This document shows positions 24,099-56,600 of a stretch of 64,000 bases of DNA, one piece after another. The stretch's first letter is position 1, and the number at the start of each line of letters is the position of its first letter. Both the position numbers and the translations under genes were made by a program. The DNA is taken from NCBI GenBank assembly GCA_951230915.1, contig OX579638.1, positions 21,718,696 through 21,782,695 of the forward strand, in the 5' to 3' direction. Source of the DNA: Antitrichia curtipendula. Taxonomy: Eukaryota > Streptophyta > Bryopsida > Hypnales > Leucodontaceae. Below the pieces are notes generated by a model, which saw nothing but the letters and a program-made list of their open reading frames with translations, was not told the DNA's origin and did no database searches.

Positions 24099-24147
24099 CT
24101 AGATGCACGGCTGCCTGTGTGTGATCACAGCCACAATTTGGAGCAAA

Positions 24148-25170
24148 ATGTCTCGAAAAGCTGCGTTGATGGTATTCGCAATCGCAGTGCTACTGCACCT
24201 CTTGTCAGTTCCGGTGGTAGCCCGAGTCGAGGACCCAATTGCGAGTGAGGGCTTGACGCACCGCGACACCAGCACTACGCTCTACGGGGCTTTCACGTTC
24301 TTCAAATGCACTTCAGATCTGCACATCACCGTAACAAGCACCGCCGAAATCAGCTCTCTCATCAAGGAGTACACAACCAAGGGTACCCCAGTGAAGATCC
24401 GCGCCACACGCCCTGGGATGCACTCCACGTCAGGATTCGTCTGCCCAGGGAAACGGGCCAGCAGCAGGCTCGAATTCGGATTCATCGGGAAGAAGGAAAT
24501 CATCGTGGATCCATTACAGCAATCAACTTGCTCCTCGACAGAATGAACCGCGTGGTGGACGTCAACAAGGGAGCTCACCAGCTCACAGTCGAAGCAGGCA
24601 TGACGCTGCTAAGTCTTTTAGAAGCAAACAACATGTCGATACTAGTAGGCGCGCCATCTCTGTACGCGAATCTCACCGTTGGGGGCGTAATTTCCGCCTC
24701 TGTGCATGGTGTAGGCTCCTCTCTCGCTGAAATCGTGACGAAGCTTAAGTGGGTGAACGCCAAAGGGGAAGTGGTGGTGAGTGATGTGGGAACAGAGGAA
24801 GGAGATGGCTTACTTGGGGGACTGGGGTTGATGGGAGTGGTGACGGATGTGACGTTGCAGCTGGAGCCGTCGTCCAGGACGGAAGCGGAAGTGAGAGACG
24901 ATTTGGATGATGAGGGGATGGTGGTAGAGTTGGAGAGGGTTATGAGGGAGGAGACGAAGTTTGTGATGGTGATGTGGCAACCGGATCTTGGGATTTATAG
25001 AAGCATTTTATATAAGACTGAGGGAGGGGTGCCGGCGCTTGATGTGAATGGGACCAATGTGTTGTTGTCAGGAATTGGAGGTGACGTTGCTGGGGCGATA
25101 AGTGAATTGCATGCGGCTTGGGGGAATGATGTGGCAGATGACTCGGAGGCCGCGGATGGTTTGAATGCAG
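24148..25170 (+). CDS. L-gulono-1,4-lactone oxidase, exon 1 (FAD-binding half), with a frame break
   Basis: The family oxidises aldonolactones toward ascorbate with FAD; plant members are secreted or wall-associated. The start ATG 24148 begins a signal peptide (MSRKAALMVFAIAVLLHLL). The FAD-binding half follows: STAEISSLIKEYTTKGTPVK, HSTSGFVCP, then in another frame LLLDRMNRVVDVNKG, LTVEAGMTLLSLLEANNMS, ANLTVGGVISASVHGVGSS and VTKLKWVNAKGEVVVSDVG. The frame changes between about 24455 and 24530 and I find no plausible intron there, so this is a 1- or 2-base indel. Exon 1 ends at a good donor, GCAG|GTGAGT. Its phase 1 matches the acceptor at 39634, where the C-terminal half resumes. Exons 1 and 2 sum to 1826 nt (3 x 608 + 2), as expected for a near-full-length gene with one indel. 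The gene may therefore be a recent pseudogene or contain a sequence error. Confidence 0.8.
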
Positions 25171-25826
25171 GTGAGTGCAACCCTCTTGCTTGGGAATGCT
25201 TCTTCAAATTCACTGTAAGGAGGTTGTTGAGAATCCCGCGCAACACATACTCTGCCGTATGATTCACCGCGGGATCATTACCCCCGGGTCGCGTTGACTT
25301 CTCTGACATTGTAACTTCTGTGCAATCTTCTAGGGTTGGTTTCGTCTCTTCAATCTCCAATTGTTGATAAGAAAATCCTTCAATCTTTGACGCTCAATTG
25401 TTGATTTAATCTTGCATCGACAATTGAACATAGCATCCTTTCATTTTAACTCAAGACTAACATCATTTCAGAAACTTTGCAACCAATTTCCGTGCACTTT
25501 GTCTTTGAGGTTTCACAAACCGCTTATCAACACTCTATGTAGAAGACGGCCAATGGGTCCACAGAGCTTCAGCAAGTCATGACGAGAACCCCTCTCCTCT
25601 CACCTTACCAAACTATTGCTTGAAACCAATAGTGAAACCCTAGAAAATCCCCGGTGGTTTCCTTTCACCAGAGAGAACTTGTTCCAAAATCCGTGTGAGA
25701 CCATCTAACACTCTTCGTTGGTCAAGTTGTTCCAAACTCTTGTGAGACCAAGAGGAAAACTTGAACTTTAACATTCGAAAATTGCAACGAGGATCGCAAC
25801 TAACTCCTCGTGACAATCCTCATGGC

Positions 25827-25845
25827 GGGTGAATGCAAGAAAGAC
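25827..25845 (+). repeat. Left terminal inverted repeat of the 13.7-kb transposon
   Basis: The 19-bp sequence GGGTGAATGCAAGAAAGAC, preceded by the TGGC duplication and followed immediately by TAGTACT. It is identical to the reverse complement of the right end, with 19 of 19 matches. Confidence 0.9.
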
Positions 25846-26743
25846 TAGTACTATTTTTTGTCACACTTCATGTGCCGGAGTTTTCATGGGCCATAACTTT
25901 TTGAATTTCAAGCCAATGTACTTGAATTTTTTTTTGAAAATGGGGACATTCATACTTGTGGGCCCTGTTATTTTTCAGAAATTATGAAAAAAAAATTTCT
26001 AATTAAAATGGAATTTAGCTAATTTGTCACACTTTGCAGTTTAAGGGTTTTTAGTACTGGGGAAGACCCAAATTTAATGATTTTGAGCTGAAATTTTTGT
26101 GGTCTGTTCCCCCTATAGATGGTCATATGCCTACCAAAGGGTTTCTAGAAAAACTTCATTCCATGTGCTCCAGAGGCCGACGAATATGGGTCCCTTGCGC
26201 GCGCAAATTTGAACAACTCACAATGTTTCAAGATGAGTTCCTTGGTCAAATGTGATGAACATGAAGTTCATGCAAATGGCCAATTTTTACATTTTTTATT
26301 TGTGCCTTTTTTTTTTTTTAAAAATGAAAAACCGGACCAGGCTATTTTTTGTAGAAAACTTGGATGCTGGCTTCCAATAGTAGTGGAATGCACTGCGTAG
26401 TAGTGCGTAGTACACCCGGGAGGACAGACTTCAATGATGTGGACGACACGTGTCCGGTGAAGATTCTGAATTCTGACGTTAGCAACTGAACTACCATATT
26501 CATTATCTGACCACTCCCCATGCAAATTAATGGAAATTTAGGAGGATCGACGGCGCTCTTCGAAGTTCTGAAGCGTTTGAACCCATGTTGGCTTAGGGTT
26601 GAAGGTTCCGCGGTCGCAATTCGGAGAGACCTCGGAGTATGACGCTACTGTTCTGGCTACACAGTTTTTGATTCGCCGAAGTCTTTCTGAGTGGTATGCA
26701 GAATCATGTGCAAGGGACAGGTTGTGACGCAAAGTAGCGAGTG
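25846..26743. other. Left non-coding end of the transposon
   Basis: No gene is supported here. AGTACT occurs at 25847 and near 26051, and a cluster GTAGTAGTGCGTAGTACACC lies near 26396. It likely holds subterminal transposase-binding sites and the transposase promoter. Confidence 0.4.
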
Positions 26744-29700
26744 ATGGAGAATGTGGGCGGCCAGCCTCGTCGTGGAAGACGTCCACAAAAAGTTCGACCA
26801 AGTCCACGCACCAGGGCAGCGGTCACTGACGCTAGCCTAGCGGATCGGCGTCGCAGAGTTACCCTACGCCAGTAGAGTAGTCGAGCTAGGCGAGATTCAC
26901 TCACTTCATCGATTGAAGACGGAGCATCAACGGACATCCAAGCAGAGGAAGTAATTGATGGAAGTCTAGAACGCGCTGTATATCGAAGCACAGTGAACCG
27001 TCATGCAGACCGCATCTGCCGGGGCTTGGTTGAGCAGCTGCTGCGCTTGGAGAATGCAGACCTCCGTGCTGCAGTAATGCACAAAGTTTTCAGTCATGTA
27101 CATGTTCGTCCATTGCTCCCGGATTATTATGCCAATCCCGCTGACGCAAGAGTCGAGCGTCAAATTCTGGAGAACATCCGCGCCGAGTTACAGCAAATGA
27201 AGATTCCGCATACATCGGGTAAATTGGCGAGGAAACGTGCTATTTTGGAAGCAGTTGTAAGCGAAATCGATGCAGACTTTAGTAGATTTGCTAGAATTCT
27301 GGGTACAAAGAAGACGAATGTTGTAGGGGTTGTTGAACGCTTGCGCAGCGCTACGAGCACAGATGGTGCGAGATTCGGCGTGCCTGCCAGAAGAAAACGA
27401 GAAGGCGGCATTTCTGACGCTGTTAAGTTCGAGGTGACTACGTGGTGGACGGAAGAAACTAGGGTGAGCCCAAATCGGAAAGACATCCGCAGAAAGCGTT
27501 TAGGACGAAATCTATACGACACGCACCCAACGCATCTTCTCATGGAGACGCAGGTTTATTTTGCCAATCCTCTTCTGCACTGTTTATGCATGCTCGCTTC
27601 TTCATTCTTTTCCAAATCCTCCATCCGGTAGAGAATGGACGCAAGCATTGCTAATTCGGTTCCATTTGCTCTTGTTGTCGTCACCTTTCCTTCCTCCATC
27701 TTTGCGGACTGCCTTGGTAAGTGACTTTGTTATGTGGTTTTCTGTGAAGCCTGTACTAGGAATTCATTAATGTGTTTTTTACTTACACCGGAGACCTTTC
27801 GTCCCTTCCTCAGTATTGTACACTTAGTCTCTTATGCTTGCAGTGCTGTGAAAGGCTATATATGACAATTCACACCATATTCTATAGTACTGGACGTACC
27901 GTTCTCTCTGCTGCATTTGTCGCACTATTTCTTCCCATTACTAGTAAGCTCTTGTACAATGAGGTTTGTCACCCCCCTAGTACTCTCTAAACTTCTGTGT
28001 GCTGCGATCATTCCTCTGATGTAGTAAGCACATACAGTACGGTCTATAGTCATGCAGTTTTTCTCCCTTAGCACTTCGAGGATATCCTTGGAGAATAGTC
28101 TGTACATTACTGAGTACTGCTTCAGTATTCTCGTGGACTCACCTACCGCCTTTACCATTTCCAGTACTGCGAGCCCAGACTGGTCCTGTATGTCTTCGTG
28201 GTATACTGAATACTCTGTTTTACTGAATAGTCACACAAGCAGTCTTCATTAATGGTGCTTTGTACTCACTACTCGGTGCTCACTATTAACGGCACATTGT
28301 GTCCTTATTTCTCCTCTTACCCGCAGTACCCTCAAGACTTTTACTCCAGCCTCTTGTACTACGTAGGACTACTGATTTTCGCCCTTCAGCACCAAGACAT
28401 ACACTTCAGCGTAAGAAGTACTGGATACCCCTTGCACAGTGCTACTAGTCTTGCACAGTACTGCGGCTTCCTACGTTCGAGTACTGATTCAGTACTTTAA
28501 GTGCTACAGAGCACTGACTACGAGTACTTTGTAGCTCTTTTTATACCACATAGTACTTCTAACGGAACCAAAGTGGTACTAATGTTGCTTCGTCTGCTAG
28601 TCATGAAAGCGTTGCGGCGTCCTTTCCCTCCCGATTTTGTCAAACCATGTTTTACTCATCTGACTGTATTTCAGCATGTACGTCTCGTGGGCATCATTCA
28701 TTGGTCTTACGGATTAGACCGTTATTTCATGCAGAAGCAATTGTATGATCGATTCATAACCGCTCATCCAGAGTGCCTAATCATGCGGCGTTCATTTGAT
28801 CGTCTTCGACCTTTCTTTGTCATCAAGTGCAAGGAGCGTAACGTCTGCTGTTGTCGGTATCATGTGGAGGTCCTTTTTCTGCTGGAAGCACTTAATGCAT
28901 TTCGTGACCCTCACACTGGCGCTCACGTTGTTTTGAGGTGTGGTTGCGAATGTATTGTCTGTGGTTTTGGCAATGGTGGGCAATGCAAGGCTGGAGATAG
29001 TCGCTTTTCAGGTGTCACTGCTATGTGGGAGTCCTTGTTGTGCCCTAAAGCTGAGGACACGGAATTCCATCGGCCATACTGCTTGCTAGGAGAGTGTAGC
29101 AGCTGCGGTGTTTCCTTCTTCAAGCTCTGTCCCAGGGAGCGTGTGGACATGCCAGGCGTGAGCATCAAATGGAAGCAATTTCAATACGAGGTCGTTGGAT
29201 CCACAGACGACGGTAGGCCGAAGAAGCGCATCAAGGAGATCTCCCGCATTACTGCGTTCCCGGAGTTTGTGGACTTCTTCAAACCTACAATTGAGCGTTT
29301 CATACGACACAATTTTGAGTCCCACTGGCAAAGCGACCAAGCAAAAGTACTGAGGCAATGTCTACAGCGGGGTGCCATTCTCTCCCATATAGACTTTGCG
29401 GAAAATTATACGTTCCAGGTCCAAAATGAAATCCAGTTCATGTACTTCAATTCCACACAAATGACCATTTTGGTGCACATGACTTACTACTGTACATTAG
29501 CATCGGAGGATGCTAATGACTTGCCGACCCTAGTCAGGGAAACCCACTATTATATCTCAGACGACCGGACACACGACACCCTCTTCGTGCAACACTGTCT
29601 GCTGCTACATTGGCGGTGGTTTATTTCCACGAAATTCACTCCAGACACTCACTACGTGTTCAATGACGGCTGCACAGGTCAATTTAAAGGGGCTCGAGCG

Positions 29701-31011
29701 CTCTACTTTGCTGCCAGATTTGAGCGCCTACCTGTATTTTTCTTCGCATATAACAGTATTCAGTTATGCTAGAAAGTGTCAATCTATGTATACAACTCTT
29801 GTAGTCTTCCGTGTGGTCTAATTAGCCAAATAACTCTTCATGTGTCATATTTGACAGTATAGTGACTGCTAAAAAATATGCTCTTCATCACCTGCTTTCA
29901 TTGCTTTGTAGATATCCATCGTTGACCGGCGGCTGCAGAATGATATGGAATTTTTATGGCTCGGGTCACGGCAAGGGTGAATGGGATGGTGTTGGCGCTG
30001 TCATCAAAAGAGCTTTGCGTGCCGAGCAACTCCTCAATCCTCATAGGACTTTACAGAATGCACGCGATTGCGTTACATTCTTAGACGCGTCTTTGGCTGG
30101 ACAAGTCCCTAATACACGAGATCGGACTAGGTGATGCACCAGAACCAATCCTTCTTACTTTCTTCACTGTGCGTTCAATCTTCTGTGGTCCTAACATACT
30201 CAACTTCCATTCTTATCTGAAGCTACTCTTTCAATTGTTTCCACCTCTTCCTCTGTGTCCATTGTGTTCCTGAAATGGCATTGTTCTTGTCCATGTTCCC
30301 CCTTGCAGGTCGTATCGTTACTTCCACCACATCGGAGTTCAGGACGTTGACCGCACCAATCTCCACTCTTGTGACCGCATACCAGGATCATCGAAACTAC
30401 ACTCCGTACTGGCGCCTGATCGAAATGACCCAACGAAGCTGCTTGTACGTGAATTGTCTTGCTTCTGCGGTCCATGCTTAGAAGCAGATTTCAGCCACTG
30501 TGAAAATCTGCTGTACGTAAAATCCTGGAACGCAATCAAAATTCAGCCACATGTTGCGGGCTTCTCTCTTCCTGTACCAGACATAGACGATGGAGAAGAC
30601 ATATGGGATTGAGAATACAGTGAGGATGGCATGGCTGACTTAGTGCAAGCAGGCGACAACTTTGCTGTTCCGGCAGCTCCTGACAATGATGAGGGTGTTG
30701 CTTTTTATATACTACAGTGCCAAGCTCCCAAAAGAATTCTGACGGAAGATTTGAATTGCAGCTGGGGAGGCCAATTCAAAGTAGGAGACTCCATCATCTC
30801 AGGCACTTACTATCAGAAATGGGGACGTTCTGACCTCCAAAACTACGTGTACCTTAGTAACTCTCAGATTGCGCACTTTGATGCCAGCATTATCCTTGCC
30901 TGTAAATTTCAAATGCTTCCCAGACAATATCGTGTCAAAGGAGGAAATCGGGTATATAAGCTCCCTGATGAAACTGTAGACGTTATTAATAGCGCCTTGG
31001 ATTGCTTGTGA
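26744..31011 (+). pseudogene. DDE-type transposase of the 13.7-kb element (decayed, with in-frame stops)
   Basis: Exons: 26744-27553, 28735-29733, 29912-30130 and 30309-31011. Exon 1 encodes a basic N-terminus, then HKVFSHVHVRPLLPDYYA and WWTEETRVSPNRKDIRRKR. Exon 2 has CKERNVCCCRYHVE, several Cys pairs, IDFAENYTFQVQNEIQ, and a second acidic motif NDGCTGQFKG. Exon 3 has FYGSGHGKGEWDGVGAVIKR. Exon 4 has RELSCFCGPCLEADFSHCE and an acidic linker followed by a C-terminal module (GGQFKVGDSIISGTYYQKWG, ILACKFQM). The order DFAENY ... DGC ... HGKG-DG-G is that of a transposase-like family widespread in animals and usually annotated as uncharacterised; I infer an RNase H-like DDE/D core. Defects: TAG at 26873-26875, TGA at 30610-30612 with the frame open beyond it, and non-matching phase between exons 2 and 3. 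It is probably inactive. Confidence 0.7.
27554..28734 (+). repeat. AGTACT-rich intron of the transposase gene
   Basis: This 1.18-kb intron contains at least nine exact AGTACT palindromes (for example near 27887, 27979, 28114, 28162, 28417, 28457, 28479, 28490, 28520 and 28551) plus many GTACT and AGTAC variants. About 0.3 would be expected by chance. The copies are irregularly spaced and not in simple tandem, which suggests repeated protein-binding sites rather than a microsatellite. Confidence 0.7.
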
Positions 31012-31538
31012 GCCTAAAGAAGTAATATTCATTATCCTCTAAAAGAAGGCCTTCAAACTTGCAAATTGCATGTCCAATCATCTACCATACTAGTAGATGT
31101 GACTCTGGCACTATGATTGATCATGTAAGTATGCATTGTCAATGTCAATTTATTTATCAAAAGTACCCACACCATGCTAAACACACCTTATGTACTGAAA
31201 TTACAATATTAGACAGCAGTACAACCGTCTTCACTCGCAAGGGCACCTACAATACTGAATTTTGCTGTACATTAGGAACTATACTTCAAACGTGGTACTA
31301 TGTAGCATGATCGATACTGCTACAACGCACTCGCTACTACTGCAGAAGTACCTCTACGCACTGCGAATGTTTTATATCACTACTATAACGTACTGAAGAA
31401 CACTCCCCGCAATACTATGACGCGGTACTAGTCACTATGCAGGACTGAAGTCACTGAACGCATATACATAGCACTACACTTCTAATGTGAGGACCCTTTG
31501 GCTCTCCTGAAATTGTTTCATGTCGATTCTTGTAGAAG
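31012..31538. other. Convergent spacer between transposase and SET cargo gene
   Basis: The transposase ends at 31011 and the minus-strand SET gene at 31539, so both 3' ends lie here. The spacer is again rich in GTAC-core motifs (AAGTACC, CAGTACAA, GGTACTA, CGTACTG). No ORF of interest. Confidence 0.5.
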
Positions 31539-34500
31539 TCATACTCCTCTGCAAAGTTTGCTACGGCAGCAGCATTCAAATGGTGATGTCTGATCGTCAA
31601 ATTCGACTCCGTAGTCCCACGTTAGTTCCTCCCCGGCCCGTATCATGCGATTAGCAAAGAAAGCAACCTACACAGCATGTATCCACGACTCTCAGCAATG
31701 CAATTACAAACTACGTGTTCTGCAAAGACAACGTGCAGAAGGAGAATTGAAAGCTTTTTTCAGTTCTGGAACTTGCATGATATAACGTTGGACTATCGTA
31801 GTCCACCCACACTGGCATCTCCATGAGATTGGCATCTCCACATCTGCATTCACATTGTTGCTTTCAGTAGTACTCTATATACACCACAATCAACGAAGCA
31901 AACAGGGGAGAGAGAAGGCATATGTATGCTATGGTATTCGTACCTATGATTCAACCACCTTGCAACGTTTGCCACGTCGGTCGCATCTATGCACAGTAGC
32001 GATTCATCGTCGTTGCAGGCCTCCGACTCCCAATCAGCGTCAAGCGCCAGGGAATACTTGGTCCGGTCACCTCTTCTGAGCAATTCTGCATTTGTCACAA
32101 CTTCTCCTGCATATTCAAAAACAAAAGACCCACGTCGGAGGGCCTGCACCGTCCTAATGCCCCAGCCTTTTTCCTTGCTGACATGAAATACCTGCAACAA
32201 CATCCACAAAACCGAACATGTTACCACTCCCTTCAAATGCCCTTCACGCAATGCAGTCAGTGCTTGAGCGATGTGATTCCCTCACCTCCAAGGGCGTCGT
32301 CAATCCTCTCTGCACTACCATGTTCAAGCATTCGGGCGTACATTGACATTTGCTGTTGCACTCACGGATGAACTGCAGTGGGACATGTCCATTGCAGCGC
32401 CCATGTTTGATCTCGGTGCATGTGGAAAGCGCATTGCAATAAACATATCGCGATGCACAGCCGCTGCGCCGTCTCAAAAACTGCATAATCGCAGCCACAC
32501 CGCAGTGAACAGACAGTACGCATTCAACCACGACCACGTAGTAGTACAAGGCTGACCGTTTTCTTAGTCTGACCAAACCTAAGAAACACAGCATGAGCGC
32601 TACGAATGCACTGTACTCTCTGTTCCCGACTGCCGTGTTTTGATGCTAGTGGAGATAAAGTCATGGCAACTCCTTCAAGCCTCAGATTCCTAAGATTCTT
32701 CAAGGTAAAGAAAGCAAATACAGGAAGAAAAGCACACCTGTACAATATACCGAGGGTATAGGAGGCCGTCACCAACATAATGTTGTTGCGCTTCGTCAAG
32801 ACTGCACGAGCATGTGTTGCGCATACCAATGGAGGCGTCGTCCTTCACTGAATCGAGAGTGGAGCTCGCTATGGAAGCACGCAGTGTGACGGCAGAGACA
32901 TACGCATGGATTCCAAGGGACTTGACATATGTGTAGGACTTGTCCGGAGCAGGGATACCGTCCGAGGAATCACCCTCAAAAAAAAGAACAAGTACGCGTT
33001 CTAGACCCCTAGACACGTCAAAGTGTTTTGAATGCACAAGTCCCTGTTCAGAGCAGCTTATCATATACCAATCACGAGGCAAAGTACACAAACAAACATT
33101 TCATTACACATGATTCACATCACAAGTGCACTTTGTTTTGCACTGTGGTCCCCAAGAACCAGTACCTGAAAACTTCTACCTATACTATTAGAAGGAAGAC
33201 ATACCAAGAGTCCTTATTCAGTACAGCATTTGCAGATTGTATCTTCCGGTTATGGAACCAACCGTCTGTGGCAACGCATGACCAACGCCGATGTTGTGGG
33301 CCAACATGCCTTGCTCAAGATGCGAATCTTGGCTTGGTCCCACGGTCGCACCGTGGGACAGAAAGCACTCCCGTGGCCCACAGTCATGTGCAATCCTCAT
33401 ATGACTACTGTTGCAGGTATATGGTATGTCACTGGGGCGCTGATACTTTCCTCAGGCTCGCGCCGATGGCTGCGGTCCAGGGGACTCTCGTGGACCCTGC
33501 TAAATGCAGACCCCAGTACATGATGTTGTGTTCCTCTCACCTAGCAAAAGATAAGGAGGCAAGTAGGGAGTGCAATCCATAGAGGCAGCACGAACCTCAG
33601 CCCACATTGTCGATAGCGCAATGTGGGCGCAACTCACTTTTTGGTACCCACCTTGTTCTTCTTGGGCAAATATCCAACAGTGGGATTTGCGGTGCCACGC
33701 TCGGGTACTGATTTTCCAGACGCATGACGAAGTCGGAGGACTCTGCCGCCTGCTTCAGTTGCGGAGACTTCTTGCATGGTAGCGTCCGAGTGCTCTTGGT
33801 TTCCTGCAAGACAAGGGAGGTAGTCATGGCTCACGGTGGCACTTTGTAGCTTCTTCAGTTGTCCAAAGGAAAGAACATGGTGTGTACAGCAATCAACATT
33901 CTCTCAAGGTACGGTAACGAATTCTTTGTCTAACGATTGACAATCTCATAAGCAAGTTTCTAAGAACATTATTTGAATGCAGAAAACGTGGCAGCGACTC
34001 AGTAGACTACGAACCTCCACGAGATGATGAGACACCCTTCCTAGTAGCCTCGACAGAGATGCATGCAGCAGATGCAACAAGAATGCTGTCGTCATTGTCA
34101 TTTTGGCCCTCTCCGGCAGTCCCCGATTCTGGCACACAATTGAGAACATTTTTCCTGGCGCATTTGGAAGACCTCTCAAAAGTTAGGGAGTAGGGGTCCT
34201 CTGACTGTACGCCGATGGTTTCCCCTGCAGGAGTAGACTTCTGTTGTAAAGGAACAGAGACAACCGCCGATGCACTGCCACTTCTTACAGTCTGCAATAC
34301 AAACCATGAACCGGGAATTCTGTGAGAAGCGTGCCTGTTCACCGTTGTGGTGACAGATGTGAAACGTACTGAGTGTTACATTATACATTTACATACACTA
34401 ATTTAGAAAGCATGAAGTAGCGGAATCAACTTTTACCTTTGATGGTAGGATGATGTCACCATCCTCCTCAACCTCAAGAGAAGCCATAAGTTTCGGATGT

Positions 34501-35005
34501 TGGCTTTCGCTTTGCAGGAGGGGGTCATCCTTGTCAACAGCAAAGAAGTCACTGTCTTCATCTGGGCCCAGCTGCTGAACCTTTGGCACTGGCGCCTCAC
34601 TATCCTGCTCCACATGCTGGTCAGCGGCTTCATCCTCCTGGACTTTGAGTGGGGCATCCTGTACATTGTTCACGGGAGGAGGAGCAAGGCTCACGAAAGT
34701 CAACATTGACAGGTCTGCGTCGATGGTTTTCTCCCTAACCACCGGCGCTGGAAAGACCGTCTCCGGTGTTGACGTCACGGTGCCGCTGTCCTTCAACTTG
34801 CATGACGGGGTTGACAACTGGGACCCAAACGGCGTGCAGGAACCATCGAAGTCAAGCATCTGGAGTACTGCAAATCCGTCACTACTTTCCATGCCCGGCT
34901 TCATCACTCTTGGTCGGAACTCCTGTCCTCCGTCGCCTAGGCACTTAGAGACGCTGCTGCCGTAGGCAGACATACTGGGAGCCCCGTCACTAACGATGGA
35001 GGAAC
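31539..35005 (-). CDS. SUVR-type SET-domain histone methyltransferase, transposon cargo (C-terminal part of a probable RING-SET fusion)
   Basis: Exons (minus): 35005-34437, 34291-34015, 33803-33638, 33496-33409, 33043-32738, 32372-32286, 32191-31944, 31843-31777, 31667-31539. The first three are low-complexity and acidic/Ser-rich. DVSRGLERV and APDKSYTYVKS resemble the segment before pre-SET in SUVR proteins. Pre-SET is short: NTCSCS, then FIRECNSKCQCTPECLNMVV. The SET domain is complete: KEKGWGIRTVQALRRG, FVFEYAGEVVTNAELL, SLALDADWESEA, VARWLNHRCGDANLMEMP, VAFFANRMIRAGEELTWDYG. Post-SET CCCRSKLCRG precedes the stop at 31539. NHRC-DANL and LTWDYG-FDD match SUVR1/2/4-type H3K9 methyltransferases. 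Junctions agree in phase; 31777|31776 uses a GC donor. I saw no stop codon in it. The 5' acceptor at 35005 fits the RING exon upstream, so it may not be a separate gene. Confidence 0.8.
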
Positions 35006-35323
35006 CTACACATGCAACCGCAACAAGTTCAGAAGAAACGCAAGAAATCCAGTGATGCCTTTACAGTTGCCCCAATTTGTGGCCACATAGGATAAAACGG
35101 GAAAACGGCACATACAGTCAGTGCACAGGGATGTGGGTGGTCAGTAAATGTTGAACCATCAATACATACAGGAGGTCCACATTAGAGAGACAGAGACGGC
35201 ATATGGAGATGTGAATTGGACAGGCGATGGAGTTGAAGAAAAGTCAGGTCAAATGACGTAGTCAGCAAGTGATTGCGGAAGAGGAAAGTGAAAGAGTTGG
35301 ACAAATTAAGAGTGCAGAATTAC

Positions 35324-38021
35324 CTAAGGCTGCTGTCAAGTGTACAGCGGGCAGCTCCGTGGTTGTTGGAGGAGATGTTGTCTTCTGCATGTCTTCACTG
35401 AGCCCCTTCAGAAGTTTGTCGTACTGCCCAAATCCCCAACTATTGTACCAAAGTGGTGGCACTATCCTGCAGTGCGGGGCAGGACATGTTACATTATTTT
35501 GGAACCACTGCGCTGCACACCAGGGATAAAAAACATGTTGGCAGTTGCAGACAATGACGTCCAAGAAAGGAAAACCATCAGAGCATATGCAGCATTGAAG
35601 AAGAGTGGGAAAACTGGCTGCGCACTGCGAGGGACTAGTAACTCGTCGGTGTTGCACGCAGGTAGCGGCCGCATCAGTACTGCATCCTTGCGTGCTTCTA
35701 GCTTTGCGGAATAGGCTTGGAGGGCGACAAGGCGATTGGAAGCAGCTGTCCTTGCGCATGATACATGCTGAAGTTCGGCTTCCAATGCAGACTTTGCTGT
35801 TGCAAATGATGAAAGCTTCCTGACGTTGGAGTAGTACATTTTCAATATAGGCCCTATTCCTAGCTGCTTCGTAGCTGCTTCCATTTCATCTAGTTCGACA
35901 ACAGCACCGCAGTCCTCGCCTGCCTCACTCAAAGAGGACTTGAACTGTTCAACAAGTTCGGAGGAGGCCTCCCACTGGACAGAAGCTTGCGCAACCTCTA
36001 CCTTCTTATCAGAAAACTGTACGTCACTTCGTTGTAGTAGGGCATCGAACTTCTGCAAAACTTCAGCAACTTCGGCTTTCCTGAAACCCAAATGACGTGA
36101 AACACGTCAGCATCTACCTTGCATGGGTATTCTACATTGCAGTTTGTGCTGCATTGAGAAGTTAATGTCGGAGCACGCATGACTACATGAAAGTAGTGAC
36201 AAGAAGATACGAACAGAGGACTGCAAGTACAGCGGCACTTGGATAGTAGTCCTACGTACTACTTCTTGTATAGCGTAGTACAGCAGCACTTGGATAGTAG
36301 TCCAACGTACTACTTCTTGTATAGCGTAGTACAGTGTCACTTCACAAGAGGACCAGAACGGACACGGAGTACTACGTACTAGGAGTGTAGGTGGTAGGAA
36401 TACGAGAAAGAAAGTGAAATCTTCACTTCCCTGGGTACTCATTGTCGTCTGTACCAATCACTGCTCTACGAGCGAGTACCTCGACAGGCGCAAAGCACAG
36501 GACTTGGAGGAATAAAGTACATGAAGTGTATTTCAGTAAGCAAGTGGGGAAAGGAGGGCGGAAGTCCATTCCTTCTAATGTGCCACAACCTCTACACTTT
36601 GCACATGAATACTACCCGTCTACTAACAAAGATGCAGTGGCAAAGTCAAACCATTACCACTGAGTACTACATACGTACATTCCGCCTATTCAATAGTGCT
36701 ACATGTGATCCATTCCAGGGACGTGTACAAGCAGGAAACACAAATACTACTGGAGTATGTTGACAGATAATCAAAGCAGAAAGGGTACAAGAAGCATACA
36801 ATGCCATTCTGTCCGACAAGAATAGAAGGGCTGAGGATGTCACGAAACTCAATTACTAGTACAAATGAAGACACGCATGGAAGAGCAATTTTGTTCACGA
36901 AAATAGTAAATTGGGAGAGGAATACTACAGAACTTGAGAGCTAGTACTTCAGGGTCGCTGCTTGCGGCGTCACGTAATGAAGAACGACTCTTATTGTCCT
37001 GCGTGGATCCGCCATGCAGTGAAACTTGGCATTTGACATCCCCGAGCAAGAACTTGTCCGCAGATTCCTCCGCATACTCTGGGATGCCCTCTTTTTCATA
37101 GACGTCGTTCATCGGGACACCCAGCACGGTCGCCAGTCGTTGAATGCATCCTCGCAGGCGCCGACTGTAAGACTTTTGCTGGCCTTCATTAGTTTCTGCT
37201 GCAAATTCCGCCCAATTCACCTGCTGATTCTTAATCTTATTCAGGACAAATCCAATTGCAAACTCTTTAGCAACATGAGCAGGAGCATAAGTTTTCTGGT
37301 AGCATAGGCAATATAGTCTCTCTGCGTCTTTTCTCAAAGTGCCAGTGAGCTTTTCTCCCAAAGTAAAGCCGTTTTTGGACTTATCCTGTCCAAACACGGC
37401 CCGCACCTCTTCTAGCGATATGTCTCTTCCAATCTTCAATTTGTGACTATTTACACCTTCACAAGGAAGATTGAACGTGGAAGCAAAAGTTTCTGCAGTC
37501 ATAGACGCCGGTGGTCGTTTGTCCGCAGCGCGCAAAGTTGCCAGCTGTTTTCGGCAAGCGGATTCCGTAATTTCGTCTTCCTCCATCTTCTCTAGCAAAT
37601 GACGTTTGCCAGGGCCCATACTGGTATCAAGGTTCTCTTCGCTCTCACCTTGAATCTCTGAAATGTCTTGTGCACGAACAATGTCATCAGCAGCAACAGA
37701 CGTTTCCGAGGAGGAGTTGTCCGAAGCGTATCCTGATGTGGGCTTCTTCTTCCTAGCGACGGGCTCCTTTTCTTTTCCACATCTGGAAGGCCCAGTTAAG
37801 GCTGACGAATTCCCTTGTACACTCTTCTTTTTGGTCTTCTCCGATGCTAATGGCGATCTGCCATGAGATGGCGCTGCATTGGCGGCCTTCACGCTGTTGA
37901 CCTTCGAAGCCGTATTCTTCCTCGGAGTTGCTGGTGTAGGAGCCTGCACGTCGCCTCCGGTCTCCTCTGACGCATCAGAAGCAGGTCGTGCCCGCACTGC
38001 AGTTCTCTTCATCTTCCCCAT
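35324..38021 (-). CDS. N-terminal half of the cargo gene: basic region, unknown domain, coiled coil and RING-like finger
   Basis: Exon 1 (38021-36934) starts MGKMKRTAVRARPASDASEE and is long, basic and Ser/Lys-rich, likely nuclear. A conserved-looking block follows: KLKIGRDISLEEVRAVFGQD, GEKLTGTLRKDAERLYCLCY, LRGCIQRLATVLGVPM. I do not recognise that domain. A 0.85-kb AGTACT-rich intron precedes exon 2 (36080-35681: KAEVAEVLQKFDALLQRSDV, a coiled coil). Exon 3 (35624-35324) has a RING-like finger: CCICSDGFPFLDVIVCNCQH, VFYPWCAAQWF, CPAPHC. Exon 2 to 3 needs either a 56-nt intron (GTACTG...CGCAG) or a frameshift. Exon 3 ends at TTAG|GTAATT in phase 1, and the acceptor at 35005 continues GSSIVSDGAPSMSAYGSS in frame into the SET exons. 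RING fingers usually act in ubiquitin transfer; that role is inferred here. The exon 1 donor is weak (AA|GTTCTG). Confidence 0.6.
36081..36933 (-). repeat. AGTACT-rich intron of the RING-SET gene with a 2 x 51-bp tandem repeat
   Basis: This intron contains many GTAC-core palindromes (AGTACTACGTACT, TACGTACT, CTAGTAC). Two adjacent 51-bp copies start at 36235 and 36286, beginning GCACTTGGATAGTAGTCC and containing CGTACTACTTCTTGTATAGC. It has the same composition as the transposase intron at 27.6-28.7 kb, which ties the two genes to one element. Confidence 0.6.
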
Positions 38022-39535
38022 TGCTTGAATTTCGGCTATACCGCCCTAACTGTGCACGGAGAAGAGTACGTCAGTGGAAGCAACGAGTGGAAGATCCTCA
38101 AAAAGTGCAATTCGACAGCATCCCCAGTGCCGAAGGACTATAGCCTTGCACATCCATTTCAGCTCTCTACCTCCGACACATTCACAGAATTTATTGGGGC
38201 TGCACAGACTACCTAATGAAAGGAAGAAGAGGAAGTGCAACTCAAGCGGACGCTAAACCCTGAATTTCCTATCGAACGCTCTCAGCAATTTTATCCGGTG
38301 CTTATGCATTCGCTCCATGAAACCCAAGAAGGACATGGTATCCACTTGCAGACTGAATGTGCGTAAGCAAGTCATTTGTTTCAAGGAGAGGAGAGGACAT
38401 GATATGAAGGCGGACCTCCTATGACAAGAGAGACAGAAGAACAGAGACGGAGCCAACACACATACAGGCATTACGACGAAAACAATAAAAACCCGGAACT
38501 GAAGGCACATGCTGCATCGAGAAAATACAGAGTTGCTCATGGACGGTGAATGCAAGTGAAAGACGGCAAATCATAGCTCCTCCACCGCAGAGGAGCAGTA
38601 GGCCGAATGGCAAAGTGGCACTGACAGCGGACATCAAAATTCTCGGAATCCTAGACGGTGAATGCAGCGCCAATTCTATGTTTCCGTGGTGCTAGCTGAG
38701 AAAAGGGTATGTGCAGTGAGGAACGCCTCAACAGAACAAGCAGAGTAAGGAATGCAGAGACTTACCGGACTCAAGCGTGCTTCCGGACAGATGCTTCACA
38801 GTTCAAAAAACAACGCGCTGCGATCTCTCGACCTTTCTTGCGCCTAGAGCGTCACGCAAGCGCCCTCGCCATCAATGTGTCGGTCACTAACTACTGCTGC
38901 AGGGTGCAATTGCGGCATTGGTTGTGACCCGTATCACGGTAAGCATACTCTCCCCAAACATATTGAACCCAAACCTCAGCACTTTGAAACGTGAAGGCGA
39001 CCACCCTTTCCCTCCGTTGCCTTCAAGCGCGACGTACAACGTTGACGGCAAGCAAATTCCGAAGCAATCTCAACATGCACATGGGATCACACAGCGGCAG
39101 CAACGGCCATTGAACTGGAAACCCTAACTTCGACGACAAGCTCGCACAAGTCGCAAAATTCGGGAGAGACAATAGTCAAATTTGTGGACGGACAGATTCT
39201 CGTATTGCAAGAAATCATCGGCGGTCCTTCCATTCACTTTTGGATGAATGAGATGTGATTGGGCAGGCAACGGCGACGTCAATCCCCGGTGCCATTAAGT
39301 CCCTTGCGTCCAGGTGTCAGAGAGCAGGCGTCCGCAACTGAATTGCAAGTCCACTTTAATCCGTTGCATTGAGCGCCAGAGACAGAAATTGACACCACTT
39401 GTCAACAGTGGAGAACATCTGCAGTTCCATCGACGGTCCAAAACGGACGCTGATTTTATATTGTAGTACTCGTAGTACTGCTAGTACAGACCTGAAAACG
39501 TCCTGTACTTTGCAAAACGCTACGCAAAGTGGACG
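38022..39535. other. Right non-coding end of the transposon
   Basis: No gene is supported. It should contain the promoter of the minus-strand cargo gene. TIR-like motifs occur in left-end orientation at 38545 (GGTGAATGCAAGTGAAAGAC) and 38657 (GGTGAATGCA). AGTACT motifs lie near 39464 and 39474, close to the right terminus. Confidence 0.45.
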
Positions 39536-39554
39536 GTCTTTCTTGCATTCACCC
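39536..39554 (-). repeat. Right terminal inverted repeat of the 13.7-kb transposon
   Basis: The plus strand reads GTCTTTCTTGCATTCACCC, the exact complement of the left repeat. TGGC follows at 39555-39558. Two AGTACT motifs lie 60-75 bp inward. Confidence 0.9.
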
Positions 39555-39633
39555 TGGCGTCCTGTTTGAAATTTTCCGTTTCATGTTTGAAGTTTTCTGT
39601 TTGCTAACCCTGTCCCCCTTGTCTCCCGTGCAG

Positions 39634-40436
39634 CGGCATGCAGCGTAGCACAATCGGGAGTGCACCTCCCCGCTTTCCTCGACAACCACCACCACCCCAC
39701 CACCCACGCTACTCTCCCAACCAACCGCGTCCCCGTCTCTCCCGAATGCTCCCCCAACTGTTCTTTTGATCCTCACTACGCCGGCGTCGTGGTCCCATCC
39801 GGTGAGATTGCAATCAAACGCTCCCTCTTGTCCTCTTGGGTCCACGACGTCAAACGCATCATCCTGTCGGAGTTTTCCGAAGTTTCATCCCGCATCCCTG
39901 GCCATGGAAAGTCCTGCTTACCTGGTCCCTTCATGCTCCGCTTCGGCTCCGGAACCTCATCCCCTCTCTCCACCAGCACGGGTAATGAAGACGTGGTTTT
40001 CGTGCAGTGGCTCCCCATGGCGTCCGCAAAGACTCCTACAAAGCCAGGGAAACACGCCCCCTTGTGGGAGACGATTGAGCAGTTGAGTCTGTGTAAGTAT
40101 AAAGGACAGCCGTCGTATGGGCAGAACCCTGAGAGGATATTTAGACATCCGAAGTGCCATGTGAGTGAGAACTTCCCGGAGGAGAGCTTTGAGAAGGTGA
40201 GGGAGTTGCAGGAGAAGCATGACCCGGACAGGGTGTTTGAGCCGGAGCTTTTTCAGATGATTTTGAAAAAGAGAGGGCCGGAGTACGGGAAGTTGTGTGC
40301 GTTGGAGCACTGGTGTTTCTGTGAAGAAGACGAGCATTGTGCGGAGAGGCATGCGTGTGTGGCGTCGCCTGTGTTTCCGGAGTATAAGATTTGTAAGGTG
40401 GTGGTTGGATCGGGGGCGAGGCACGATGAACTCTGA
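39634..40436 (+). CDS. L-gulono-1,4-lactone oxidase, exon 2 (C-terminal ALO half)
   Basis: This is the second half of the oxidase gene, 14.5 kb downstream of exon 1. Acceptor CCGTGCAG|CGGCATGC gives G|CG, continuing GLNA-AACSVAQSGVHLP in frame. Family landmarks are FDPHYAG, FMLRFGSGTSSPLS, DVVFVQWLP, LWETIEQLSLCKYKGQPSYG, ELQEKHDPDRVFEPELF and the Cys-rich tail CALEHWCFCEEDEHCAERHA typical of plant gulonolactone oxidases. The stop is at 40436. The intron before it contains the 13.7-kb transposon; only about 731 bp of original intron flanks the element. Whether the transcript is still spliced correctly across this intron cannot be seen from the sequence. Confidence 0.85.
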
Positions 40437-53699: not shown

Positions 53700-56600
53700 C
53701 TGGGCAGTGAAAACAAATTTAAATTTCTTTAGTCCAAGTTACTTATACATTTGTAGCAAATTTATCTCCATGCAAAGGGAGAAAATACATAACTTATGAG
53801 GTTAGGATTTCAAATTTCATACAAGTGTTTGCATCAATGGGTAAATCTTCTTTCCAATTCAATGTGGAAAATGATGTGAAACAATATTCAAATGATGATA
53901 TTATCATTATGAAATTGTAAAATTCAAAGTAAGTTAATGTTGGAAAACAAACAAGCTTGATGAGGTATCTTTTTTCCTAGATTGTCAAGTGACAGTTATA
54001 TTTATATTCTATCCCTTCACTGGTGGATCAACTCTTAATCTTTTGAAGAATGTCTATTATCATATAGGTTGTAATGTCCCTTCACTGGTGGATCAACTCT
54101 TAATCTTTTGAAGAATATCTATTATCATATAGATTGTAATGTCCCTTCACTGGTGGATCAACTCTTAATCTTTTGAAGAATGTCTATTATCGTATAGATT
54201 GTAATGTCCCTTCACTGGTGGATCAACTCTTAATCTTTTGAAGAATGTCTATTATCATATAGATTGTAATTTCAACTTCGCTTAATCCCACGATCAAAAT
54301 TTATACCCCAACTATTCTTCGCTATTGGTACAAATGTCCCCTTGGGACACATTCATATTAATACTAGAATGTACTTGGAACTCTTTGTAATCATATCCCA
54401 AGCAACCAATCACAAGGAAGTTTGTACTAAAAATTTAAATGCCTTTAAAGACTTCTTTTTTTTAACTTCAAATGTTGAATTTTTTGCAAATTCATATGTT
54501 TATAGTATTTTTTTCTAAAAACTATCAAAATAGTCTAATACAATTTTGTAAGGTTTGACATCCAAAAAAAATTGTTCATTTTGTTCAATTCCGTTCTTGG
54601 AGGTCACCTTCAGCACCTATTTGCCAAATAATTAATTAAAGTCCAAAATGAACTTCAGTACTTAAAAAAAAACTTCTTAAAATTTTTGCATTAAAACATA
54701 TTAAGTTAAATTTATTCAACATCCACCTCTTATAGATTTGACAGTTAATTTTGATGTATGCAAGAATGTACACACAATCTCTTTATACAAGTGGGTGGTA
54801 GAAGGTAAAACAATCCATGTGGTATATTAAATTAGGATTAGTACAAGCTCAAATGCTCATCTAGTTAAGTCAATTTATCTAGTTCTTAAACCTTCAAGTT
54901 TTAGGACAACCTCATTTACTTTTAAAGATTGAAAGATTCAAATTCAACTTCAAAGAATGGTTTAAGCATTTTGATTTTGCAATTCGCCAAGTGTTTTTTT
55001 TTAATTATAAAAAAGACATATATTAGAAATTGAATTTAGAGTTTATATGTTTGAACATGCCAAAAATCTAAATAAGGCAAAGCATATAGCATGATTTTTG
55101 AGATAGATGTCTTGAAAAAAAAATTGGCTTAACTTTATCTACTCATGTATCTACTAAGCATCATGATTATAAATGGAGTCTTAGTAACTTTCTTGAAAAG
55201 TGTTAATCAATAACCTTTTCCACATTAATTTAAATGCATTATTTTGGCTTTGAAATTTCATCCCCAAAACAATATTTGGTTTAGCATTTGATATTACGTG
55301 TTGATTGGTTGAACTTTTTTTCATCTATAGTTTGGTATAAAAGACAAAGATTTGATGATGAAAATGTATTTGTTTTAATATTAGTATTTTATAATTTAAA
55401 TAAATAAACATTTGAGACATGGATCTTTTTCCATTAAAAATCTGCAATTGTATTCATTAGAATTAATAAAAAAAAAACTATAAAAGAATGAATGTAAGAA
55501 TTAGTGTAAGAACTATGAGAGGTGATACAATATGACCATTAGAACCTTAAATCTTAAGATTACAAATTCTTGCCAAACCTTTGGATGATTTCAGTTTTAA
55601 CAAATGTAACAAAAATATAATGTAAATATAATAAATGATTCATATTTCTATTATTTTCTATAGCATGTTATTTTGAGCAGTGTCAAGAAAAATTACAAAA
55701 AAAAACATACATAATGTCTTCTATTGGCTAAAAGTATTATTTCTAGTAAATGGCATAAAGATATAAATTTTCAAAGTCTAAATTTTTTTTTTAATCTCTT
55801 ATGGCCCGCATTTGTAGTCATGTATGTGTCTCTTGAAGTGTGACCAACATGACCTCAAATCATCACATTGGAATGTCTTCAATTTACACTTGGTGTAGTA
55901 TGACTTCAAAGCACTAAGAGCCTTACGATTTTGGATTTTAAGTCTTTTGAAAGATGGTTCAATGATGCATCAAATGACATTATAAGTAATTTTTCAATTA
56001 ATGATTTTGAAATAACAAAATTTCTCCAATAATTTGTGTTTTGGAGAATTCTTTTTTTTATATATTTCAAAGTAAAAAATAACCTCTGAGAGTATATTCA
56101 TGCCAAGGGCAATATAAAGGTGAGGTATAAATTATATCCTCTTGGATTTAATAGTAATTCAAAGTATAATTTATCAACAAAAAAAATAAAATTCTAATGT
56201 TTGATAGTGTATTCATACAAATGAGGGAGATATGACTTTTTAGGAGTGAAGGAGGAACTTCCAATGGAGTTTACATACCTTCACTTTTCAATTTCAATAT
56301 CTAATTATATTGAAGATTGTCATCCAGCATGTGCAAATTATAACCTTTAATAATTGAATTTTAAAGGTTTATATGAATTGGTATATATGATATTATAAGT
56401 GATTCTTATAAATACAAATTATATACTAAAATATTGCAAGACATATACCATTGGATTAATAACTTAAAAATTAACATTTTTCATGTGGATGTCATTATAA
56501 CATCTAAACCTCATCAAGCTCAAATATATAACACACATATATAGAATATTGTAATAGCACCATTTTGTAGTTTTTGAAACATGTAGTAGGTACAAAAATG

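Follow-up and report, generated by a model that had tools for sequence, protein, structure and literature searches.

Methyltransferases that act on lysine 9 of histone H3 (H3K9) are tools with which hosts silence transposons; why, then, would a transposon keep a gene for one, reversing the usual picture of an arms race? The question is raised by a 13,728-bp DNA transposon, present as a complete copy at positions 25827-39554 of a 64,000-nucleotide stretch of the genome of the moss Antitrichia curtipendula (contig OX579638.1; that whole stretch is ‘the window’ below). Besides a transposase gene, the element carries a second gene, convergent with the first and encoding RING-like and SET domains. 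Sequence comparison across the genome shows this gene to recur in a whole lineage of transposons as their second gene, rather than to be casual cargo. We consider the anatomy of the element and the long-term association of transposase and SET gene, as distinct from the purpose of that association, highly probable.

The boundaries of the element were read directly. A 19-bp terminal inverted repeat (GGGTGAATGCAAGAAAGAC, plus strand, 25827-25845) has its exact reverse complement at the other end (minus strand, 39536-39554), and the target-site duplication TGGC lies directly outside both termini, at 25823-25826 and 39555-39558. The host exon stops at 25170 and restarts at 39634 with a splice join in phase (G|CG), leaving a plus-strand intron of 14,463 bp (25171-39633) that would measure 731 bp without the 13,728 bp of the element and one TGGC. 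The exon before the element matches FAD_binding_4 (E 1.6e-11) and the exon after it GULLO2-like_3rd (E 1.2e-6), by which the host gene is gulonolactone-oxidase-like (the latter match being to the domain at the C-terminus of L-gulonolactone oxidase 2-like proteins). The GULLO2-like match and the CHG-type decay described below speak for a plant genome, and the nearest named relatives for a bryophyte. A first-pass annotation, made from the letters alone, had described the same repeats, duplication, matching oxidase halves and intron of about 731 bp; all of these hold.

Two convergent genes that recur together

The plus-strand gene (26744-31011) was modelled by hand with exons at approximately 26744-27553, 28510-29717 (start unsure), 29912-30130 and 30309-31011, and its frame is interrupted in the window copy. 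The join of exons 2 and 3 agrees with an uninterrupted relative (P0001); the frames of other copies are broken elsewhere, or the exon broken in the window is open there. Among 52 aligned relatives (108 were found), D221 is invariant and D306 and D348 are at least 90% conserved, and residues 202-400 of the predicted structural model match integrase folds. No Pfam match was obtained; the conserved residues and the model support the ‘transposase-like’ label of the first-pass annotation, and the product is predicted to be a DDD (three-aspartate) transposase with an integrase-type core.

The accessory gene (31539-38021, exon joins modelled) lies on the minus strand and points towards the transposase gene; its putative product comprises an N-terminal domain, a coil, a RING-like finger, a linker, and pre-SET, SET and post-SET regions. 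The N-terminal domain occupies an open frame at 36852-38045 that has no Pfam match, the RING-like finger a frame at 35265-35885 (zf-RING_2, E 2.5e-5, below the cut-off), and the pre-SET, SET and post-SET exons, placed by profile matches and alignments, approximately 31539-33025. In the window's own frame the SET domain lies above the Pfam cut-off (E 4.6e-7); the module scores 63.7 bits for SET (cut-off 22.4) and 26.3 bits for Pre-SET (under its cut-off of 29.1), and inspection of the alignment reveals the post-SET cysteines. The last pair of the finger is C-x4-C in all four aligned rows. The large convergent gene with RING-like and SET domains proposed at first pass is thus borne out, with SET above its cut-off and a RING-like pattern that scores just under its own. 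One frame, broken by a single stop, holds the N-terminal, coil and RING parts of the related element L045, which supports their belonging to one protein; the joins from the RING part to the SET part are an exon model.

The 120 listed relatives of the SET module are plant SUVR-type proteins, 116 of them with a WIYLD domain according to precomputed annotation, and its PDB matches are SUV39H2, EHMT1/2, Clr4 and similar proteins, the SET domain of SETMAR (3bo5) among them. By these relatives the module is of SUVR1/2/4 type, its core in the window being 50-54% identical to the 17 plant host proteins compared. Scanning for WIYLD gave a match in a Ceratodon control (P0111) and none in the transposon pieces covered. 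Relatives of the N-terminal/RING part, 42-61% identical, occur in at least 8 environmental proteins (7,994 candidates scored), so this protein is not private to the present genome.

The pairing of the two genes was surveyed in a single assembly (400 Mb, 303 contigs), using the best 109 of 385 transposase candidates scored, with 12 short or split rows left out, and 133 of 150 listed SET rows (207 matches in all); the 17 omitted rows are second exons, as are still two of the 133. A pair was counted where a SET place lies downstream of a transposase within 15 kb. Such a place accompanies 81 of the 94 transposase matches at least 45% identical to that of the window (6/7, 25/27 and 50/60 in the identity tiers from 45% upwards), on the opposite strand in 81 of 81 cases; in the tier at 40-42% identity the count is 0 of 15. 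In the one window-family copy without SET (C6:19.5 Mb), 1,052 bp have been deleted at this place; 52 of the 133 SET places are not near any listed transposase.

Eight other transposase lineages were sampled, chosen before SET was looked for. SET was found in six (L043-L047 and L050) and a RING-like finger in five (L044, L045, L048 weakly, L049 and L050); in L046 and L047 the fetched stretch stops soon past SET, and in L043 no RING was found although the stretch continues. Upstream of the SET gene of L043, where RING would be expected, is a frame (971-1069) with the motif EGDGNC, which we take to be reminiscent of OTU-type cysteine proteases. L048 and L049, both of the 40-42% tier, have the finger and no SET, which suggests, on the thin ground of two lineages, that the RING protein is older and that SET was added later. 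Nearly intact copies, some with identical scores, occur in this SET-less lineage, which has probably been active recently.

A tree of seven transposon SET domains and 17 of the 120 plant host proteins places all seven transposon sequences on one side of a branch (support 97/94). The SET tree and the transposase tree, the latter with some weak branches, both pair L043 with L044 and L046 with L047, and both group the window with L043, L044 and L050; the transposon SETs would thus branch broadly like their transposases. Their identity to the host proteins compared is 42-57%, against 56-95% among the host proteins themselves, which span land plants and one charophyte; this implies either an ancient split or rapid evolution of the transposon genes. 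No closer host donor for separate transposon SETs was found among the plant proteins compared, a set that leaves the host genome's own SUVR genes outside. Between L046 and L047 the ratio of nonsynonymous to synonymous change (dN/dS) is 0.335 for SET pooled and 0.255 for exon A, compared with 0.164 for the transposase part, pointing to constraint in this one pair; between L043 and L044 synonymous sites are saturated. Core SET motifs are mostly kept.

Copies, derivatives and decay

The first 301 bases of the element recur in at least six other places at 96-99% identity (best 40 of 1,400 candidates scored), which rules out a chance inverted repeat, and the last 301 bases in eight other places at 93-97% (among 40 scored matches). 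Along the element, the six copies retrieved share 96-98% identity with that of the window; one of them (C1:16.3 Mb), compared over its first 10.1 kb and last 0.3 kb only, carries an insertion, and its right end is known from a search match alone. Perfect 4-bp duplications, all different, flank six of the seven copies (TGGC in the window, then AGAG, GTTT, TGAT, TTAA and CACT), and the copy at C1:53.7 Mb has a mutated right end and no duplication. The search for further copies proposed in the first-pass annotation thus yields at least seven in the genome, and the possibility of a solitary block falls away. At C1:47072736-47086400 lies a related element, 13,665 bp long, whose ends resemble those of the window copy and whose duplication is TTAA.

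Short derivatives are also present. Among the 40 left-end matches scored of 1,400 candidates, 33 cover just the first 279-285 bases at 80-82% identity, and 31 of 40 scored right-end matches cover the last 50-52 bases at 96%; several of these pair up 732-733 bp apart. Such derivatives with the family's ends lie at C3:3471287-3472019, C2:8174675-8175407, C1:790821-791553 and elsewhere, and many score identically, which would fit a recent burst. A perfect duplication (CTAG) flanks one of the two that were inspected; the other has none. They were probably mobilised by the same transposase.

Differences among the seven copies are mostly C-to-T (and G-to-A), and their codon-position periodicity gives no clear coding signal, since most of them reflect such decay. 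Tandem repeats also vary: a 51-bp repeat in the first large intron of the accessory gene (36226-36342, 2.3 copies) differs in copy number between element copies, and within the first intron of the transposase gene a stretch of 273 bp (window 28274-28546, element 2448-2720) is tandemly doubled in the copies at C1:53.7, C6:19.5 and C1:16.3 Mb. The element holds 21 occurrences of the word AGTACT, a density of 1.53 per kb where the rest of the window has 0.32; several lie close to the two termini and within the same intron, and the word may mark protein-binding sites. Outside the element, the first part of the host oxidase (24103-25170) shifts frame near 24.5 kb (24103-24546 against 24249-25262); a missed intron, a frameshift or an error of assembly would account for this. 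Also outside it, a 65-bp tandem repeat at 54012-54340 has four copies at 97%.

Possible function and rival explanations

We envisage the family as an autonomous, Sola-like cut-and-paste transposon, of which the window copy is now defective because its transposase frame is broken. The DDD transposase would act on the ends and leave 4-bp duplications, and the second, convergent gene would make a chromatin protein. In it, an N-terminal domain peculiar to the lineage would be followed by a coil, a RING-like finger and, at the C-terminus, a pre-SET/SET/post-SET module of SUVR type, whose most likely origin is a single capture from a host H3K9 methyltransferase, with retention ever since. This protein would write H3K9 methylation on chromatin bound by itself or by the transposase, perhaps assisted by ubiquitin from its RING end, and would thereby set the chromatin state of element copies. 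According to the passages on SUVR4 in PMC7218100, the Arabidopsis protein, said to be dependent on ubiquitin, binds it via WIYLD and turns monomethylated H3K9 (H3K9me1) into higher states in vitro; the RING-like finger stands where that ubiquitin route would begin, an analogy that invites a link. That the accessory protein methylates H3K9 is, judging from its domains, rather probable. We propose its purpose more tentatively, as interference with the host loop of dimethylated H3K9 (H3K9me2) and CHG methylation, in which the protein might pull H3K9 away from the loop.

Several observations weigh against this picture. RING and SET occur together in just three of the eight sampled elements, and the SET-less tier is the most intact, with stop-free transposases in 14 of 15 matches as opposed to 28 of 94 at 45% identity or above. 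The RING-like finger, a candidate cross-brace of the C3H2C3 type seen in RING E3 ligases, scores 24.9 bits, under the Pfam cut-off of 27.3 for zf-RING_2; structure prediction of the N-terminal domain gave no usable fold (predicted local distance difference test, pLDDT, 40.5); and a Foldseek search of PDB with the transposase had no result at E 0.001 or better. The SET tree has long branches that meet, with the host genome's own SUVR genes outside it, and exon B, one of the two SET exons compared between L046 and L047, has a dN/dS of 0.685. C-to-T departures among the seven copies reach 4.8% in CG and in CHG contexts, against 1.4% in CHH, a pattern that is the mark of plant CG/CHG methylation, and TAG makes up 90 of 115 in-frame stops in the 109 transposase matches, CAG being expected to decay in the CHG context. 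SET-bearing copies therefore look methylated and decayed, and the protein would seem to give them no lasting protection.

The same decay bears on the rival that survives best, namely self-restraint or safe-haven targeting, in which the SUVR-type protein would silence copies of the element that encodes it or steer insertion into heterochromatin, with less harm to the host, instead of countering host silencing. H3K9 methylation is normally repressive, as the portion of PMC7218100 concerned states, and decay in CG and CHG contexts is heavy in SET-bearing copies; however, the host methylates plant transposons anyway, so the decay is not specific, and the window copy sits in the intron of a gene, which is no evident heterochromatic haven. 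We regard this explanation as possible, if somewhat doubtful.

Far less probable is passive capture of a host gene fragment with no function for the transposon, similar to Pack-type elements. Introns are retained, as when genomic DNA is captured, many copies contain stops, and the exon B ratio of 0.685 is in keeping with such an origin; but SET recurs in convergent orientation beside 81 of 94 matches to transposases diverged to 45% identity, the transposon SETs group together with their core motifs mostly kept, and their pooled dN/dS is 0.335. We reject this reading, as we do the very improbable one in which the RING/SET gene belongs to another element inserted beside the transposase: two elements might in principle have come together in a convergent layout, and RING was not found in three of the eight sampled, yet the block has no inner pair of ends of comparable length and the layout recurs in separately diverged elements with outer ends of their own. 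An assembly artefact, conceivable where one assembly was examined, is rejected as scarcely credible given seven copies with different duplications and different flanks.

Relation to known systems

The passages on Sola1 in PMC10741241 and PMC9033089 describe elements, present in the moss Physcomitrella, that have a DDD transposase, duplicate 4 bp of target, vary in their ends and can be longer than 15 kb; they mention no RING or SET gene. The present family shares the DDD residues and the 4-bp duplications, and its transposase features fit the Sola superfamily, a likeness drawn from published descriptions. A Harbinger assignment was rejected, since target duplications of that superfamily are 3 bp (PMC2213677, in the part describing them) and those of the present family 4 bp.

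Transposon-borne SET genes are already in print from oomycetes. The relevant portion of PMC12730594, citing Repbase Reports 2014, reports that Phytophthora HarbingerS and MuDR transposons carry SET histone methyltransferase genes; these are likewise DNA transposons that acquired such a gene, but they belong to other superfamilies, whereas the present element combines a plant SUVR-type module with a RING-like region. The Phytophthora Proto-Helentron, as described in part of PMC4067079, also bears an H3K9-type (Clr4-like) SET gene, in a separate frame of about 153 amino acids, and differs in being a Helitron-type rolling-circle element. The first-pass annotation had found a multi-domain chromatin gene in such a plant transposon unfamiliar as a described arrangement; given the oomycete cases, that holds at most for the plant, Sola-like, RING-SUVR version, of which no description was found in the literature searched, and does not hold for transposon SET genes generally. 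TET/JBP-bearing fungal DNA transposons and the Vandal anti-silencing protein, also transposon-encoded epigenetic factors, act on DNA methylation according to the section of PMC12730594 that treats them, while the enzyme type here is a histone methyltransferase.

At least 81 SET places are paired with transposases in this genome, compared with the seven genes taken from Physcomitrella in a Su(var)3-9 survey (PMC3063831). A plant transposon lineage may long have encoded its own trans-acting chromatin writer, a RING-like and H3K9-methyltransferase fusion; with so many such genes, transposons might even hold more SUVR-type genes than the host itself and have a part in shaping the host's silencing system, a suggestion we advance with considerable reserve. 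Many SUVR-like genes annotated in such genomes may be transposon genes. The family also offers a natural test of whether a ‘repressive’ enzyme lets a transposon hide, restrain itself, pick its landing sites or jam the host loop.

Compared with plant SUVR1/2/4, the transposon version has the same pre-SET/SET/post-SET arrangement, with an N-terminal domain and a RING-like finger in place of WIYLD. SETMAR, in which a host gene is fused to a mariner transposase, also links a SET methyltransferase with a transposase; a SETMAR-like reading was rejected on gene layout, the present SET being the transposon's own second gene. With this family, transposon-borne SET genes extend from oomycetes to plants, where they put natural RING-SET fusions on offer.

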